Origin: an uncultured Pelagibacteraceae bacterium
GTDB lineage: Bacteria > Pseudomonadota > Alphaproteobacteria > Pelagibacterales > Pelagibacteraceae
Direction of reading: 5' to 3'
Length of the DNA: 56,052 nt
Assembly (NCBI GenBank): GCA_902626245.1
Contig: CACOED010000003.1
Span: 1-56,052 of the forward strand
Shown here one piece after another: positions 7,456 to 15,329 of the stretch. A program made the position numbers and the translations under genes. Every line of letters starts with the position of its first letter. The first letter of the stretch is position 1. Below the pieces are notes generated by a model that saw nothing but the letters and a program-made list of their open reading frames with translations, searched no databases and was not told the origin of the DNA.

Positions 7456-7893
7456 TTAAGAAATTTTATACTCGATAAGAACTAAAGTTCTCCAACCATT
7501 CTTTTCTTTAAGTACCTTTTTATGCACAATTCTATATCCAGCAATACTTACCTCATCTAATCTAGAGTCAGCTGTTAAATCATAAGTTTTAATTATGCCT
7601 TTTTTATTTTCCTTATGAGTTATAACTTCATTAGATAAAATAGAGTGCTGGGTAATGTCAGCAATTTTAATTTTTGCAGATAAAATTGCCTTGTTTTCAG
7701 ATATGTTAAGATCTTTTGACCAACCATTTCCACAAACTTTAATAACTTTATTTGTGCTTTTATTTTTATCACAATAAATATTTATAAATTTTTGCAAATC
7801 ATCGGGTGATTTAATTATTTTTTTATTTTTTACATATGAATTTGCACAATTGCTTAGCAATAATCCAAAAATAATAATTGATAATATTTTCAT
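7456..7893 (-). CDS. Putative lipoprotein
   Basis: MKILSIIIFGLLLSNCANSY has a lipobox-like LLLSNC. Confidence 0.65.
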   Translation of the reverse strand: MKILSIIIFGLLLSNCANSYVKNKKIIKSPDDLQKFINIYCDKNKSTNKVIKVCGNGWSKDLNISENKAILSAKIKIADITQHSILSNEVITHKENKKGIIKTYDLTADSRLDEVSIAGYRIVHKKVLKEKNGWRTLVLIEYKIS

Positions 7894-7901
7894 TTTTTCT
7901 C

Positions 7902-8120
7902 CTATAAATTTTCAAGTAGTGCCATAAAAACCATTGTGAAAGCTCGATGATATTTTTCATCAGTTACAAACTGAACAAAAATGTTGTCTTTTTCTTCACA
8001 GGTGTAAGTTTCTTTTTTATTCACTAATTGATTATTTTCAACATCTGCATATGCATAATACTTACACTTTGCATTTACAGGTGTTATTAATAAAAAAAGG
8101 ATGATAGCTACTCTAATCAT
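7902..8120 (-). CDS. Small hypothetical exported protein
   Basis: MIRVAIILFLLITPVNAKCKYYAYAD has signal-peptide character. Confidence 0.6.
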   Translation of the reverse strand: MIRVAIILFLLITPVNAKCKYYAYADVENNQLVNKKETYTCEEKDNIFVQFVTDEKYHRAFTMVFMALLENL

Positions 8121-8358
8121 ATATCTCCTTTTCTTTTTGACTTATTTCAAATCTTATTTGATTTAAAATAGCATCCATTAGAACAAAAAACGCTTTATGC
8201 ACTTCCTGCTCAAATACTTGTTTTTGGCATGTAGAGTTACACTCTGTTAGAACATGTATTAATGTTTGTTGATAATATTCATTAGATTTAGCAAATGAAT
8301 GAGTAGTAAAGGTAATTAAAAACAAAAATAAAATTATTTTAATTATTTTCAAAACCAT
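8113..8358 (-). CDS. Small hypothetical exported protein (start likely MVLKIIKIILFLFLITFTTHSFAKS)
   Basis: Signal peptide-like N-terminus; AGGAGGATGG ribosome-binding region; ORF track gives 8113..8421. Confidence 0.6.
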   Translation of the reverse strand: MVLKIIKIILFLFLITFTTHSFAKSNEYYQQTLIHVLTECNSTCQKQVFEQEVHKAFFVLMDAILNQIRFEISQKEKEIYD

Positions 8359-8542
8359 CCTCCTTAGTATATTTTTCAATTGTTTTTTTATAATCGTAAA
8401 AATCCAAGGTATCAGCTTCAAGTTTACATAATTTTTTAATTATTATTTTTTGAAGTCTCTCTAATTTTTCATCACTTAGTTTAGACATTTTATATTCAAA
8501 CTTATTTCTAAACTTAGAAATGGGGATTTCTTTATGTTTCAC
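8339..8542 (-). CDS. Hypothetical protein (67 aa)
   Basis: ORF MKHKEIPISKFRNKFEYKMSKLSDEKLERLQ...; first gene of the small exported-protein cluster. Confidence 0.5.
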   Translation of the reverse strand: MKHKEIPISKFRNKFEYKMSKLSDEKLERLQKIIIKKLCKLEADTLDFYDYKKTIEKYTKEDGFENN

Positions 8543-8658: not shown

Positions 8659-9114
8659 ATGACTAAAATAAGAGATCCATTATCAATTGAAAAAATTTTG
8701 AAAGATTTGATTGGCAAATTAAAAGAAAATGAAATTAAAGAATTTACAGGAAAATCAATTTCTCATTTTAGAAAATGCAGTGATCCTGACGATAAAGACC
8801 ATAACCTTCATTTATCCGATGCAATAAAACTTGATATGCTGTCTTTAAAATCGCAAAATGGGAGCCCATTTTTAGATAATATTAGTTTAATTATTAATAA
8901 TGAATTTAACGAGCAGGAAAAATTAGAAGATGTATCAAGAAATCTTATTGCAATAGGTGGTAGAATAGGAAATTTAATGGATACAACAGAAAAAGCACTT
9001 CATCCTGACAGTCCTAATGGTGAAGAAATTGCAAAAAAAGAAAAAGAAAAAATTTTCGATGCTATTTCTCAAGTAGAAGAAAAAATAGCTAGGTTGAAAC
9101 TATCAATAAAATAA
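8659..9114 (+). CDS. Putative phage CII-like regulatory protein
   Basis: MTKIRDPLSIEKILKDLIGKLKENEIKEFTGKSISHFRKCSDPDDKDHNLHLSDAIKLDMLSLKSQNGSPFLD: pattern seen in CII-like HTH regulators. Confidence 0.55.
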   Translation: MTKIRDPLSIEKILKDLIGKLKENEIKEFTGKSISHFRKCSDPDDKDHNLHLSDAIKLDMLSLKSQNGSPFLDNISLIINNEFNEQEKLEDVSRNLIAIGGRIGNLMDTTEKALHPDSPNGEEIAKKEKEKIFDAISQVEEKIARLKLSIK

Positions 9115-9444: not shown

Positions 9445-11484
9445 ATGAATTTTAATTCGCTAGTTTGGTACTCTTCTTTAGCAATAGGAGATGAAAAAAA
9501 TAGTTATGTAGCTGACTTTCTTAATAGAAGTTGTGAACTACTTAATGAAGAAATTAACGATGAAATTAAAGAAAAAAAACTTCCTATTAATTTTAAGATC
9601 GATTTTTTGCACATACCAAAGGGTGAGGAAGGGGTTGATTTATTAAATAATAAACTAGTAAGTTATAAAAATCCTATATTTACCAATGGTCATAGTATAC
9701 CTAAGTACAATCCATCAATTATTGAAAGTATAAAAGATAAAAGTTTTTTTTATTTTCCTCAAAATGTAACTAATGCAAGTTACGATAAATTTGAGGAGAA
9801 TGTTAGAAAAAGGATTTTTAAAGTAGGTAGAGCTGACCAACCGGCAAAGTTAGCATTTATAGATAATGAAATAAAAAAACATTCTTCATCAAAAGTTTAT
9901 TTTTTTCATCAAGAACTGAGATTATCTGAAAAAATGTTAGCCAATCATAATGATGATAAAAATTTTACAAATTTTTCTTTTAAGGATTTTGATGAAGCGA
10001 AAGCGGATGAAAACGTAAAAACTATTTTGAAAGATTTAAAACCAGATGATTTAATAGTTTTAGATCTTAATTTAAGTAGATTTAAATATATATTTAATTA
10101 TTTAATTGATAATAATCTCCAAAATAAAGTTATCAGCACGTTTGGTTCAATAGAGAATAGGTTTGAAAAAATAACATTTAACTTAATTCAATTAGTGGGG
10201 AATCATGGGATTCCATCGGTTTCAATTGAAGACCTGATGTCAAAAATTTATGGAGAAAATGTAACACCAACAGATAAAGCTCTACTCTTAGATAGTACAT
10301 TTAGATTAGAAATCCCTATTTTAGCATTTCAAACTTTAAAGAAATGTATTAATTCTGGATTAACAAATATTGAAGATCAAAATATTTTAGAAACTTTATT
10401 GTCTTTTAATAATGATAGCGATGTTTTTGTTGGAAAACGTATTCAATATGGTTTTAACCAATCGAATGAAAATATTTTAAAAGAAAATTATGCCTATACT
10501 TTCCCTAATTCTTTACAGAATGAAAAATTTAAAATTCCAAAAATTCTACATCCAACTCAATTTTCAACAGTTAATGGAAAGATACAGCAATTTAATACTA
10601 TATATAATTATATTGATGTACTCAGAATAACCAATATTGATATTAAAGAAAAAACATGGACTGCAGAATTTTATTTAGATCTTGTATCGCAGTCAGATAA
10701 TCCTTTAGATCAGGTTATTTTTAATAATTTATCATCGACAAACGATAAATTTACTTCAAAGGAAATTTGGAGAAGGAAAGATGACAATGATTATAATACA
10801 GTTAGATATTATATAGTTGCAAACTTTGATTTCTTAGCAATTGCAGATAACTATCCTTTTGATTGGCAAAGTGTTTATATTTCAATGACACTTAAGGATA
10901 ATTCAAAACATATACTACAACCAATTCCACTAGAATTAGTAGATGATGAATTTGATATAAATGAGTGGCATATCGAAAATGCTTTTTCAGGTATAAAATA
11001 TAAGAAAAACTTTTTATATAAAGATACTGATCTTAAAAAAACGGTTACAGTATCGAGTGAAAATAGATTGGGTTGGACCTTAAGAAGAAAGAATACTGCT
11101 ACTCTATTTAAAATTGGTATACCAATGTTCTTCCTAACTTTCCTAGTTTATTATTCTGTATTTTTAGGGTTTGATAAATCAGGGGAAAGTATAGGAATTT
11201 TAACAACAACGTTCTTATCAGCAATTGCTTTATATTTTTCTGTTGAAAAACCAGAACCAAAAAAATTAACAATTATTGATATTATTTTTATTTGGTTTTA
11301 CGTCGTGAATGGTTTCACTATTACGGCTTTCAGCTTATCTTCATTAATAACTGAAAAAATACATTATTATACAAGTGGATTTTTAAAATTCATTATTCCG
11401 TTATCACTAATAAGTATTGCTATATATTTATATAAAAGAGTTCAAAATAATAGAAAAGATATAATACTTGATAGAGATCTTTAA
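9445..11484 (+). CDS. Predicted pentameric ligand-gated ion channel (Cys-loop/pro-loop superfamily) with N-terminal type-I PBP-like domain
   Basis: Pro-loop ADNYPFDWQSVYISM (Y470-Q475), compare GLIC FRRYPFDSQTLHIYL; INEWHIENAFSGIKYKK, compare GWDIESFTAVVKP; M1 with IGIP proline; M2 ESIGILTTTFLSAIALYFSVE followed by PEPKKLTIIDIIF; four TM segments at the C-terminus; N-terminal alternating beta/alpha pattern typical of PBP type I. Confidence 0.78.
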   Translation: MNFNSLVWYSSLAIGDEKNSYVADFLNRSCELLNEEINDEIKEKKLPINFKIDFLHIPKGEEGVDLLNNKLVSYKNPIFTNGHSIPKYNPSIIESIKDKSFFYFPQNVTNASYDKFEENVRKRIFKVGRADQPAKLAFIDNEIKKHSSSKVYFFHQELRLSEKMLANHNDDKNFTNFSFKDFDEAKADENVKTILKDLKPDDLIVLDLNLSRFKYIFNYLIDNNLQNKVISTFGSIENRFEKITFNLIQLVGNHGIPSVSIEDLMSKIYGENVTPTDKALLLDSTFRLEIPILAFQTLKKCINSGLTNIEDQNILETLLSFNNDSDVFVGKRIQYGFNQSNENILKENYAYTFPNSLQNEKFKIPKILHPTQFSTVNGKIQQFNTIYNYIDVLRITNIDIKEKTWTAEFYLDLVSQSDNPLDQVIFNNLSSTNDKFTSKEIWRRKDDNDYNTVRYYIVANFDFLAIADNYPFDWQSVYISMTLKDNSKHILQPIPLELVDDEFDINEWHIENAFSGIKYKKNFLYKDTDLKKTVTVSSENRLGWTLRRKNTATLFKIGIPMFFLTFLVYYSVFLGFDKSGESIGILTTTFLSAIALYFSVEKPEPKKLTIIDIIFIWFYVVNGFTITAFSLSSLITEKIHYYTSGFLKFIIPLSLISIAIYLYKRVQNNRKDIILDRDL

Positions 11485-12455: not shown

Positions 12456-13031
12456 ATGAAGATTAAATTTGTATTAGGTCCATATGGCTATGAAGTTGTA
12501 TTAGGAAATATATCGGAGCAGGTTTACAATAAATATTCTCAGGACAATGATGCTTTAAGAGATGCTGTAACAGGTTTTGAAGAAGATCCTGAGATTAAGG
12601 AATGGTCTGATATGGATGATATAGCTCACAATTATGGCGCTGTATTAGAGGAAGAAGGGACAGATCAATATTTAAAAATATTTAATGAAAATAATGATGA
12701 ATTATTAAATATACCTTTAACTTTAGATGAAATTCAAAATAAGGGTTTTAATATTAAAGAAGATGTTAAGCATTCACTAGAGGAAGATTTATCAGAAAAA
12801 TTTTATTTTTTTGGTCAGAGTGGAGAAAAAGGAGAATGGGAAAATTTAGATCAATTGTTTGAAGTGAGTGAATTTAAGCCAAGTGAATTTAATATTCATA
12901 TTGCAAACTTAGACGGGCTAAAAATAATTTATGCAATAAGTTATAAAAATAATGAAAAAACTAAGTTAAGTGTAGAGTCATCAAATCCTAACTTTCAAAA
13001 TTTTGAAGTAAGAATGGGAGATGATGTCTAA
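12456..13031 (+). CDS. Hypothetical acidic protein (191 aa)
   Basis: ORF; its stop codon is adjacent to the next gene start. Confidence 0.6.
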   Translation: MKIKFVLGPYGYEVVLGNISEQVYNKYSQDNDALRDAVTGFEEDPEIKEWSDMDDIAHNYGAVLEEEGTDQYLKIFNENNDELLNIPLTLDEIQNKGFNIKEDVKHSLEEDLSEKFYFFGQSGEKGEWENLDQLFEVSEFKPSEFNIHIANLDGLKIIYAISYKNNEKTKLSVESSNPNFQNFEVRMGDDV

Positions 13032-14232: not shown

Positions 14233-14565
14233 TTAGTAAATAAGATCTAATATTTTTCTCACTTCTTCGTTATCCTCTTCTTCATCACATTCCCAAATAC
14301 TCATTGAAGAAATAATGTCATTATTAAGATATGGTTTAATAAATTTAACTAAAGATTCATTTGAATAATCTTTGACTTCTGGACCATATGTTCCATACAA
14401 TTCTCCTAATGCATGCCACATACAGCAAGAATATGGTTCCTCATCCTTTGAAATAAATCCAAGTTTATTCCAAGTATCTTTGTCTCTAAAAAAGAATTTA
14501 AGGATTAAATCTGAATTTAACTTTGTCAAGAAATTAAGTCCTTTCCAGCATCTATAAACATGCAT
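14233..14565 (-). CDS. Hypothetical protein (up to 110 aa; start uncertain, overlaps the upstream nuclease gene)
   Basis: ORF only. Confidence 0.45.
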   Translation of the reverse strand: MHVYRCWKGLNFLTKLNSDLILKFFFRDKDTWNKLGFISKDEEPYSCCMWHALGELYGTYGPEVKDYSNESLVKFIKPYLNNDIISSMSIWECDEEEDNEEVRKILDLIY

Positions 14566-15329
14566 TTCTCACAGCTTTTGTTAATTTCAGGTACCTTATC
14601 TAATTCTAAAGTTTTTTTCATATTAATAATGTTTTCTTGTACCCAGGATGTATCTGTTACATATGGTACTAATGTCATAGTAAAATTCAATTTTCCCTCA
14701 AAGTTATCAAAACTTTTTTCTGCATTACAAACATAAAAGTAAGACGTATCTGAAACTTTAAAGCCCATTTTTCTTAAAATATGAACATATATATCCATCT
14801 GTATTTTATAACCTTGATGATAAATACTTTCTAAATATGATTTAGTTTCAACTTTAGTATTACTTGATTGAGCCTTGTAATCTACTACAACTAATTCCTC
14901 TCTATCTAAGTCATACCATATATCATCTACCCCACCATGTATTTCTATATTGGTGTCTTTATCTAAATATGAAATTCCACCCGATAAAGAATTTCTCCAA
15001 TCATCTAATTCTTTATGTTGAAATGGAATAAAATTAAGATTATATTTTTTAAATATCGGGTGAGGTTTCTTTTGGCGTCTCAGTATATCAAATTCCTTTT
15101 TTAGTAGTTCGTCGACTGCAACATTTAATGACCAGCCAGGTGTTCCTGGATCTTTTAATCCTTTAACTCTATCTAAATAAAAACATCTTTTACAGTCCAA
15201 GAAGTTGCTAAACTTTGATCTACTTATCTTAAAAGGTTCATTTGCCCCTTTTTTATAAACACTACCCTTTCGAGTTCTTATTGGAGTAACCTCTACTAAT
15301 TCGCCTTTTGAATTTTTTTTTAATCCCAT
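14526..15329 (-). CDS. PD-(D/E)XK superfamily nuclease, possibly with Cys-bound metal cluster
   Basis: GGVDDIWYDLDREELVVVDYKAQ (D-x(n)-D-Y-K motif), YHQGYKIQMDIYVHILRKMGF (Q-x-x-x-Y), flanking CKRC and CEKC cysteines. Confidence 0.75.
   Translation of the reverse strand: MGLKKNSKGELVEVTPIRTRKGSVYKKGANEPFKISRSKFSNFLDCKRCFYLDRVKGLKDPGTPGWSLNVAVDELLKKEFDILRRQKKPHPIFKKYNLNFIPFQHKELDDWRNSLSGGISYLDKDTNIEIHGGVDDIWYDLDREELVVVDYKAQSSNTKVETKSYLESIYHQGYKIQMDIYVHILRKMGFKVSDTSYFYVCNAEKSFDNFEGKLNFTMTLVPYVTDTSWVQENIINMKKTLELDKVPEINKSCEKCMFIDAGKDLIS

Follow-up and report, generated by a model that had tools for sequence, protein, structure and literature searches.

A 679-codon open reading frame (ORF) at positions 9445 to 11484 of the window, that is, of the whole 56,052-nucleotide stretch of DNA analyzed here from an uncultured Pelagibacteraceae bacterium, encodes a protein that carries a divergent pentameric ligand-gated ion channel (pLGIC) unit, as judged by profile comparison and modeling, behind a domain that resembles type I periplasmic binding proteins (PBP-I). 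Its sequence features indicate that this channel is probably inverted in the membrane and would sense the cytosol; this judgement covers the inverted, cytosol-sensing channel and does not extend to the defense role considered below. To our knowledge, all known pLGICs read signals outside the cell, and no signal-less or inverted pLGIC was found in the open-access literature searched. The new part is the signal-less, apparently inverted pLGIC subfamily, since the PBP-I/pLGIC fusion as such is already known.

The gene and the two halves of its product

The ORF begins with ATG and is open throughout, whereas stop codons abound on the opposite strand, which contains nothing comparable. The gene is present in a single copy in its host, a Pelagibacteraceae genome of 56.6% completeness, which agrees with the SAR11-type host recognized in the preliminary description of this DNA. 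Beyond the window, 11 Pelagibacteraceae loci yielded orthologs, of which 10 are full length and one is a fragment; L002/L014, L003/L012, and L004/L013 are identical contigs met twice. The full-length orthologs share 70 to 95% identity. Prevalence is low, with the gene carried by 4 of 297 Pelagibacteraceae genomes, its own genome counted. A class-wide profile search of the class sample revealed no relative beyond Pelagibacteraceae, and none was detected in phages, plasmids, or viral contigs. The overall dN/dS of 0.05 to 0.16 corresponds to purifying selection and indicates that the protein is in use. The sensor half evolves faster than the channel half, and the transmembrane (TM) part is the best-conserved portion (0.01 to 0.09). 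The ORF is thus real, intact, and conserved, and its likeness to pLGICs exceeds chance, given this selection and the significant profile-profile homology described below. The features assigned to the gene are as follows.

9445-11484, + strand: PBP-I/pLGIC-type channel gene, 679 amino acids (aa), without signal peptide (ORF, orthologs, dN/dS)
9445-10539, + strand: predicted PBP-I (Venus-flytrap) sensor domain, residues 1-365, beginning at beta-1 (AF2, Foldseek)
10540-11079, + strand: predicted pLGIC beta-sandwich ligand-binding domain, residues 366-545 (AF2 with alignment A4, Foldseek, hhalign)
10852-10869, + strand: Pro-loop YPFDWQ, residues 470-475 (alignment A4)
11104-11169, + strand: M1 helix, residues 554-575, with Pro560 and preceded by the basic R548 (joint alignment, hydropathy)
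11185-11244, + strand: predicted M2 pore helix, residues 581-600, with Glu581 at -1', Gly584 at 2', Thr588 at 6', and Leu591 at 9' (GLIC-GlyR chimera alignment, invariance)
11269-11337, + strand: M3 helix, residues 609-631, behind the basic M2-M3 linker EKPEPKKL (joint alignment)
11380-11436, + strand: M4 helix, residues 646-664 (joint alignment)
11437-11481, + strand: basic C-terminal tail RVQNNRKDIILDRDL, with no counterpart in control pLGICs

Several lines of evidence identify residues 366 to 679 as a divergent pLGIC unit. (i) The hallmarks listed in the preliminary description were recovered, namely, YPFDWQ (residues 470-475), WHIE (508-511), the M1 proline (Pro560), a glutamate ahead of M2 (Glu581), the M2-M3 linker PEPKKLT (603-609), and four TM segments, for which hydropathy gave exactly four peaks, starting at 564, 589, 615, and 651. 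(ii) The 10 full-length orthologs show no variation at the Pro-loop, Trp508, Pro560, Glu581, or the linker prolines, nor at the pore-forming Glu -1', Thr 6', and Leu 9' of M2. In alignment A4, which joins 8 clade members with 11 control pLGICs, PFD.Q does not vary in any sequence, and the same is true of the Trp of WHIE, R548 (the Arg before M1), P560 in M1, one M2 Ala, and P605 between M2 and M3. (iii) Comparison with 11 bacterial pLGICs by hhalign gave a probability of 91.6 and an E value of 8e-7, collinear from the Pro-loop to M4, and every match in a PDB profile search was a pLGIC. (iv) Modeling of the channel half with AF2 from a mixed alignment produced a beta-sandwich followed by four helices (pLDDT 75, pTM 0.65), which Foldseek matched to GABA-A, sTeLIC, GLIC, and glycine receptors (E of ~1e-15 to 1e-14). 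Taken by themselves, Pfam, phmmer, and hmmsearch gave weak matches only. The preliminary description had regarded a missing match to PF02931 or PF02932 as speaking against a pLGIC; HMMER indeed found no match of the protein to these Pfam hidden Markov models, a result overruled by the hhalign and fold comparisons.

Glu581 had been assigned to the -2' position of GLIC, but alignment with the glycine receptor M2 of the GLIC-GlyR chimera moves it to -1'. For Glu581, Gly584, Thr588, and Leu591, we take -1', 2', 6', and 9' to be the standard M2 numbering. A Glu directly before M2 is the pattern of cation channels (PMC549065), and the pore sequence is that of a probably cation-selective channel.

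Residues 1 to 365 appear PBP-I-like in modeled fold, a likeness not seen at the sequence level. In the AF2 model, residues 1 to 230 have pLDDT values mostly of 75 to 90 and the alternating beta-alpha pattern typical of PBP-I. The best Foldseek matches of the sensor half were the GluA4 N-terminal domain, GABA-B GBR2, LIVBP, and SAR11_0655, all with a probability of ~1.00 and with low TM-scores due to poor interdomain placement in the model. The fusion of a PBP-I-like domain to a pLGIC unit, as initially proposed, is therefore upheld by AF2, Foldseek, and hhalign taken together. Locus L008 carries a mosaic gene, in which the sensor half is like that of L009 and residues 361 to 679 are 99% identical to the window protein, with a breakpoint near residue 360. 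This combination shows that sensor halves have been exchanged onto a constant channel.

Predicted orientation in the membrane

The channel protein starts with MNFNSLVWYSS, directly at beta-1, and none of its full-length orthologs has a signal peptide. Every one of them has an in-frame stop 2 to 20 codons upstream of the start, which rules out a hidden upstream start or signal peptide. Hydropathy analysis detected no TM-like stretch or signal peptide ahead of residue 550; the best N-terminal 15-mer scored 0.0 to 0.7 in the orthologs versus 1.9 to 2.6 in control pLGICs by the same measure. All 16 control bacterial pLGICs whose 5' end is intact, four of them from Pelagibacteraceae, have a signal-like N-terminal segment, as does each of the three PBP-I proteins of the host genome (LivK, UrtA, and sugar type). 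As an independent line of evidence, the loop charges are reversed as well. Loops that are canonically outside (pre-M1, M2-M3, and the C-tail) contain 11 to 12 Lys and Arg residues in 8 of 8 clade members versus 1 to 5 in the controls (n = 16), whereas the canonically inside loops (M1-M2 and M3-M4) contain 1 to 3 versus 3 to 8. Under the positive-inside rule, this reversal predicts an N-in/C-in protein, and since the lack of a signal peptide agrees with the loop charges, the sensor and ligand-binding domains are most likely cytosolic. These data conflict with the preliminary description, which implied a sensor located in the periplasm and directed at external amino acids or osmolytes.

The best-surviving alternative, which we nevertheless consider unlikely, is an ordinary periplasm-facing PBP-I/pLGIC fusion that senses external solutes and is exported by an unrecognized route. 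Its domain order would equal that of published alphaproteobacterial fusions (PMC549065), and every other pLGIC examined looks N-out. Such a protein is difficult to reconcile with the missing signal peptide or TM-like stretch, the nearby upstream stops, and the reversed charge bias. In addition, we know of no bacterial route that moves a folded domain of ~545 residues across the inner membrane without a signal, which also counts against it. Slightly less probable still is a non-conducting, pLGIC-derived sensor that faces the cytosol, in which the TM part would anchor the protein and form the pentamer while cytosolic partners signal. Conduction is indeed a prediction for this protein, and a gene for a 151-aa soluble protein is found near the channel gene, on either strand, in each of the 7 loci that extend 2.5 kb or more upstream. 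However, the invariance of Glu -1', Thr 6', and Leu 9' and the low dN/dS of the TM part argue for a pore, and the 151-aa gene is also present in other genomes that lack the channel and was not recovered from the channel-bearing genome G023. An unrelated beta-domain plus four-TM protein, for example, one that is YhhN-like, is highly improbable, because the weak Pfam YhhN match (best E = 7e-4 among members) and the absence of PF02931/PF02932 are outweighed by a profile-profile alignment that holds all hallmarks in register and by the Foldseek match to pLGICs. YhhN membership itself was rejected, as the window protein lies below the curated cutoff and the match is confined to the TM region.

Relation to known systems

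PBP-I/pLGIC fusions were described in 2005 in the alphaproteobacteria Magnetospirillum and Bradyrhizobium by Tasneem et al. (PMC549065), and a paper of 2016 mentions pLGICs in Pelagibacter (PMC4795631), so that, contrary to the preliminary description, neither the architecture nor the occurrence of pLGICs in this host group is novel. The published fusions also have the PBP-I domain N-terminal to a pLGIC ligand-binding and four-TM unit, and a signal peptide was reported in all bacterial pLGICs found, PBP-I fusions included (PMC549065). They are thus N-out, whereas the SAR11 protein has no signal peptide and a reversed pattern of loop charges, and its divergence puts it beyond the reach of the Pfam pLGIC models. 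A signal peptide and a ligand domain outside the cytosol are shared by all known pLGICs and concern topology rather than fold; the absence of the former and the predicted absence of the latter led us to classify the SAR11 protein as a topological variant rather than an ordinary pLGIC.

The canonical pLGICs of Pelagibacteraceae (L018 to L022) share the Pro-loop, the pre-M1 Arg, the M1 Pro, the M2-M3 Pro, and four TM segments with the window channel, at ~16 to 20% identity. They differ in having basic M3-M4 loops and, wherever the 5' end is complete, signal peptides, and in lacking a C-terminal tail; an extension of PBP-I size is absent from all of them. L020, L021, and L022, which have signal peptides, do carry an additional N-terminal region of ~100 to 150 residues. 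GLIC, ELIC, and DeCLIC have the pLGIC fold in common with the SAR11 protein, and all three face the periplasm. DeCLIC also bears an N-terminal accessory domain, the two lobes of which (NTD1/NTD2) are related to calcium-binding domains and not to PBP-I (PMC12664993).

A precedent for sensing on the inside is provided by AmiC and the LacI family, which are cytosolic ligand sensors of the PBP-I fold. These control transcription or antitermination, whereas the SAR11 domain sits on a predicted channel. The interest of the protein would be high if the channel topology is confirmed: (i) a natural pLGIC operated from inside the cell would demonstrate that evolution can turn the fold over; (ii) it would offer a physical test of which gating features depend on sidedness; (iii) the most abundant bacteria of the ocean would be seen to possess a ligand-gated channel that responds to intracellular signals; and (iv) if a role as defense effector also holds, the channel fold of nerve receptors would enter bacterial immunity.

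Proposed mechanism and the genomic island

In the proposed mechanism, the channel would insert N-in/C-in, leaving the PBP-I and beta-sandwich domains in the cytosol, and five copies would build one pore as a homopentamer. A putative intracellular small-molecule ligand may bind the PBP-I cleft and/or a site at the subunit interface. Binding is predicted to open a cation-selective pore, with a ring of Glu581 and a gate at Leu591, and the open pore would depolarize the inner membrane. As its likeliest use, we tentatively propose a conditional depolarizing effector that comes into play under stress or during phage infection, based on the patchy, cassette-like island with defense genes and on the exchangeable sensor half. 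An anti-phage depolarizing effector is plausible; otherwise, the protein may be a metabolite-gated ion valve. The full combination, namely, a first inverted-topology pLGIC in which cytosolic sensors gate a cation pore and which acts as an exchangeable-sensor depolarizing effector in a SAR11 defense island, is doubtful.

A number of observations weigh against these proposals. (i) The topology is read from sequence features, and all orthologs share one ancestry, so that their charge pattern represents a single evolutionary event. (ii) The sensor half matched no Pfam Peripla_BP family at E values up to 10, and in a small, weak test, its hhalign comparison with two SAR11 PBPs (LivK/UrtA) gave an E value of 0.78. 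(iii) The alignment used for AF2 modeling of the channel half contained known pLGICs; the model is thus not independent of homology, whereas the hhalign result is. With an 11-member alignment of its own family, the full-length AF2 model was good in the PBP-I half and poor in the channel half. (iv) PADLOC returned no match for the channel protein itself, and the defense link rests on gene context, while hypervariable islands collect many kinds of genes.

The channel gene occupies a variable site within the island and often adjoins three small conserved genes (7456-8421 in the window). The gene located a few bases upstream of the channel start differs between orthologs, and the operon context, for which novelty had been claimed, is not conserved. 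Other annotated genes of the island in the window are as follows.

8659-9114, + strand: soluble island protein, 151 aa
9129-9434, + strand: upstream ORF, 101 aa, ending 10 bp before the channel gene, with an ortholog beside the channel only in L006
13031-13837, + strand: GIY-YIG nuclease, PD-T4-3-like anti-phage protein (PADLOC E = 6.8e-21; Pfam LEM-3_GIY-YIG)
14526-15329, - strand: Cas4-like exonuclease (PADLOC Cas4 E = 3e-9)

The gene for the 151-aa protein is present in ~10% of Pelagibacteraceae genomes overall; it is island-linked, and its occurrence without the channel rules it out as a strict partner. No CRISPR context was noticed for the Cas4-like exonuclease; L010 and L011 have homologs of it close to the channel gene. 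A HAD-like gene was observed near the channel in L006 (5294-6091), L008 (8303-9100), and L009 (4741-5538). The L008 copy matches the defense candidate PDC-S34 (E = 7.5e-97), and the L006 and L009 copies resemble it in their N termini. Further neighbors at other loci include a kinase, a DEDDh exonuclease, and restriction-enzyme-like (mREase-like), WGR, and DUF4116 proteins. Repeat proteins of the DUF4116 type are encoded around the channel in several genomes (L007:9171-10763, L014:9463-11058, and L009:1-240), and a diverse family of small proteins without a Pfam match recurs in the islands (window 12456-13031, L003:2986-3627, and L009:6409-6942). Upstream of the island in L014 (459-2653), there are four tandem pilin-like genes with N termini like NGFTLIELLVVVAIIGILAAVGVV.
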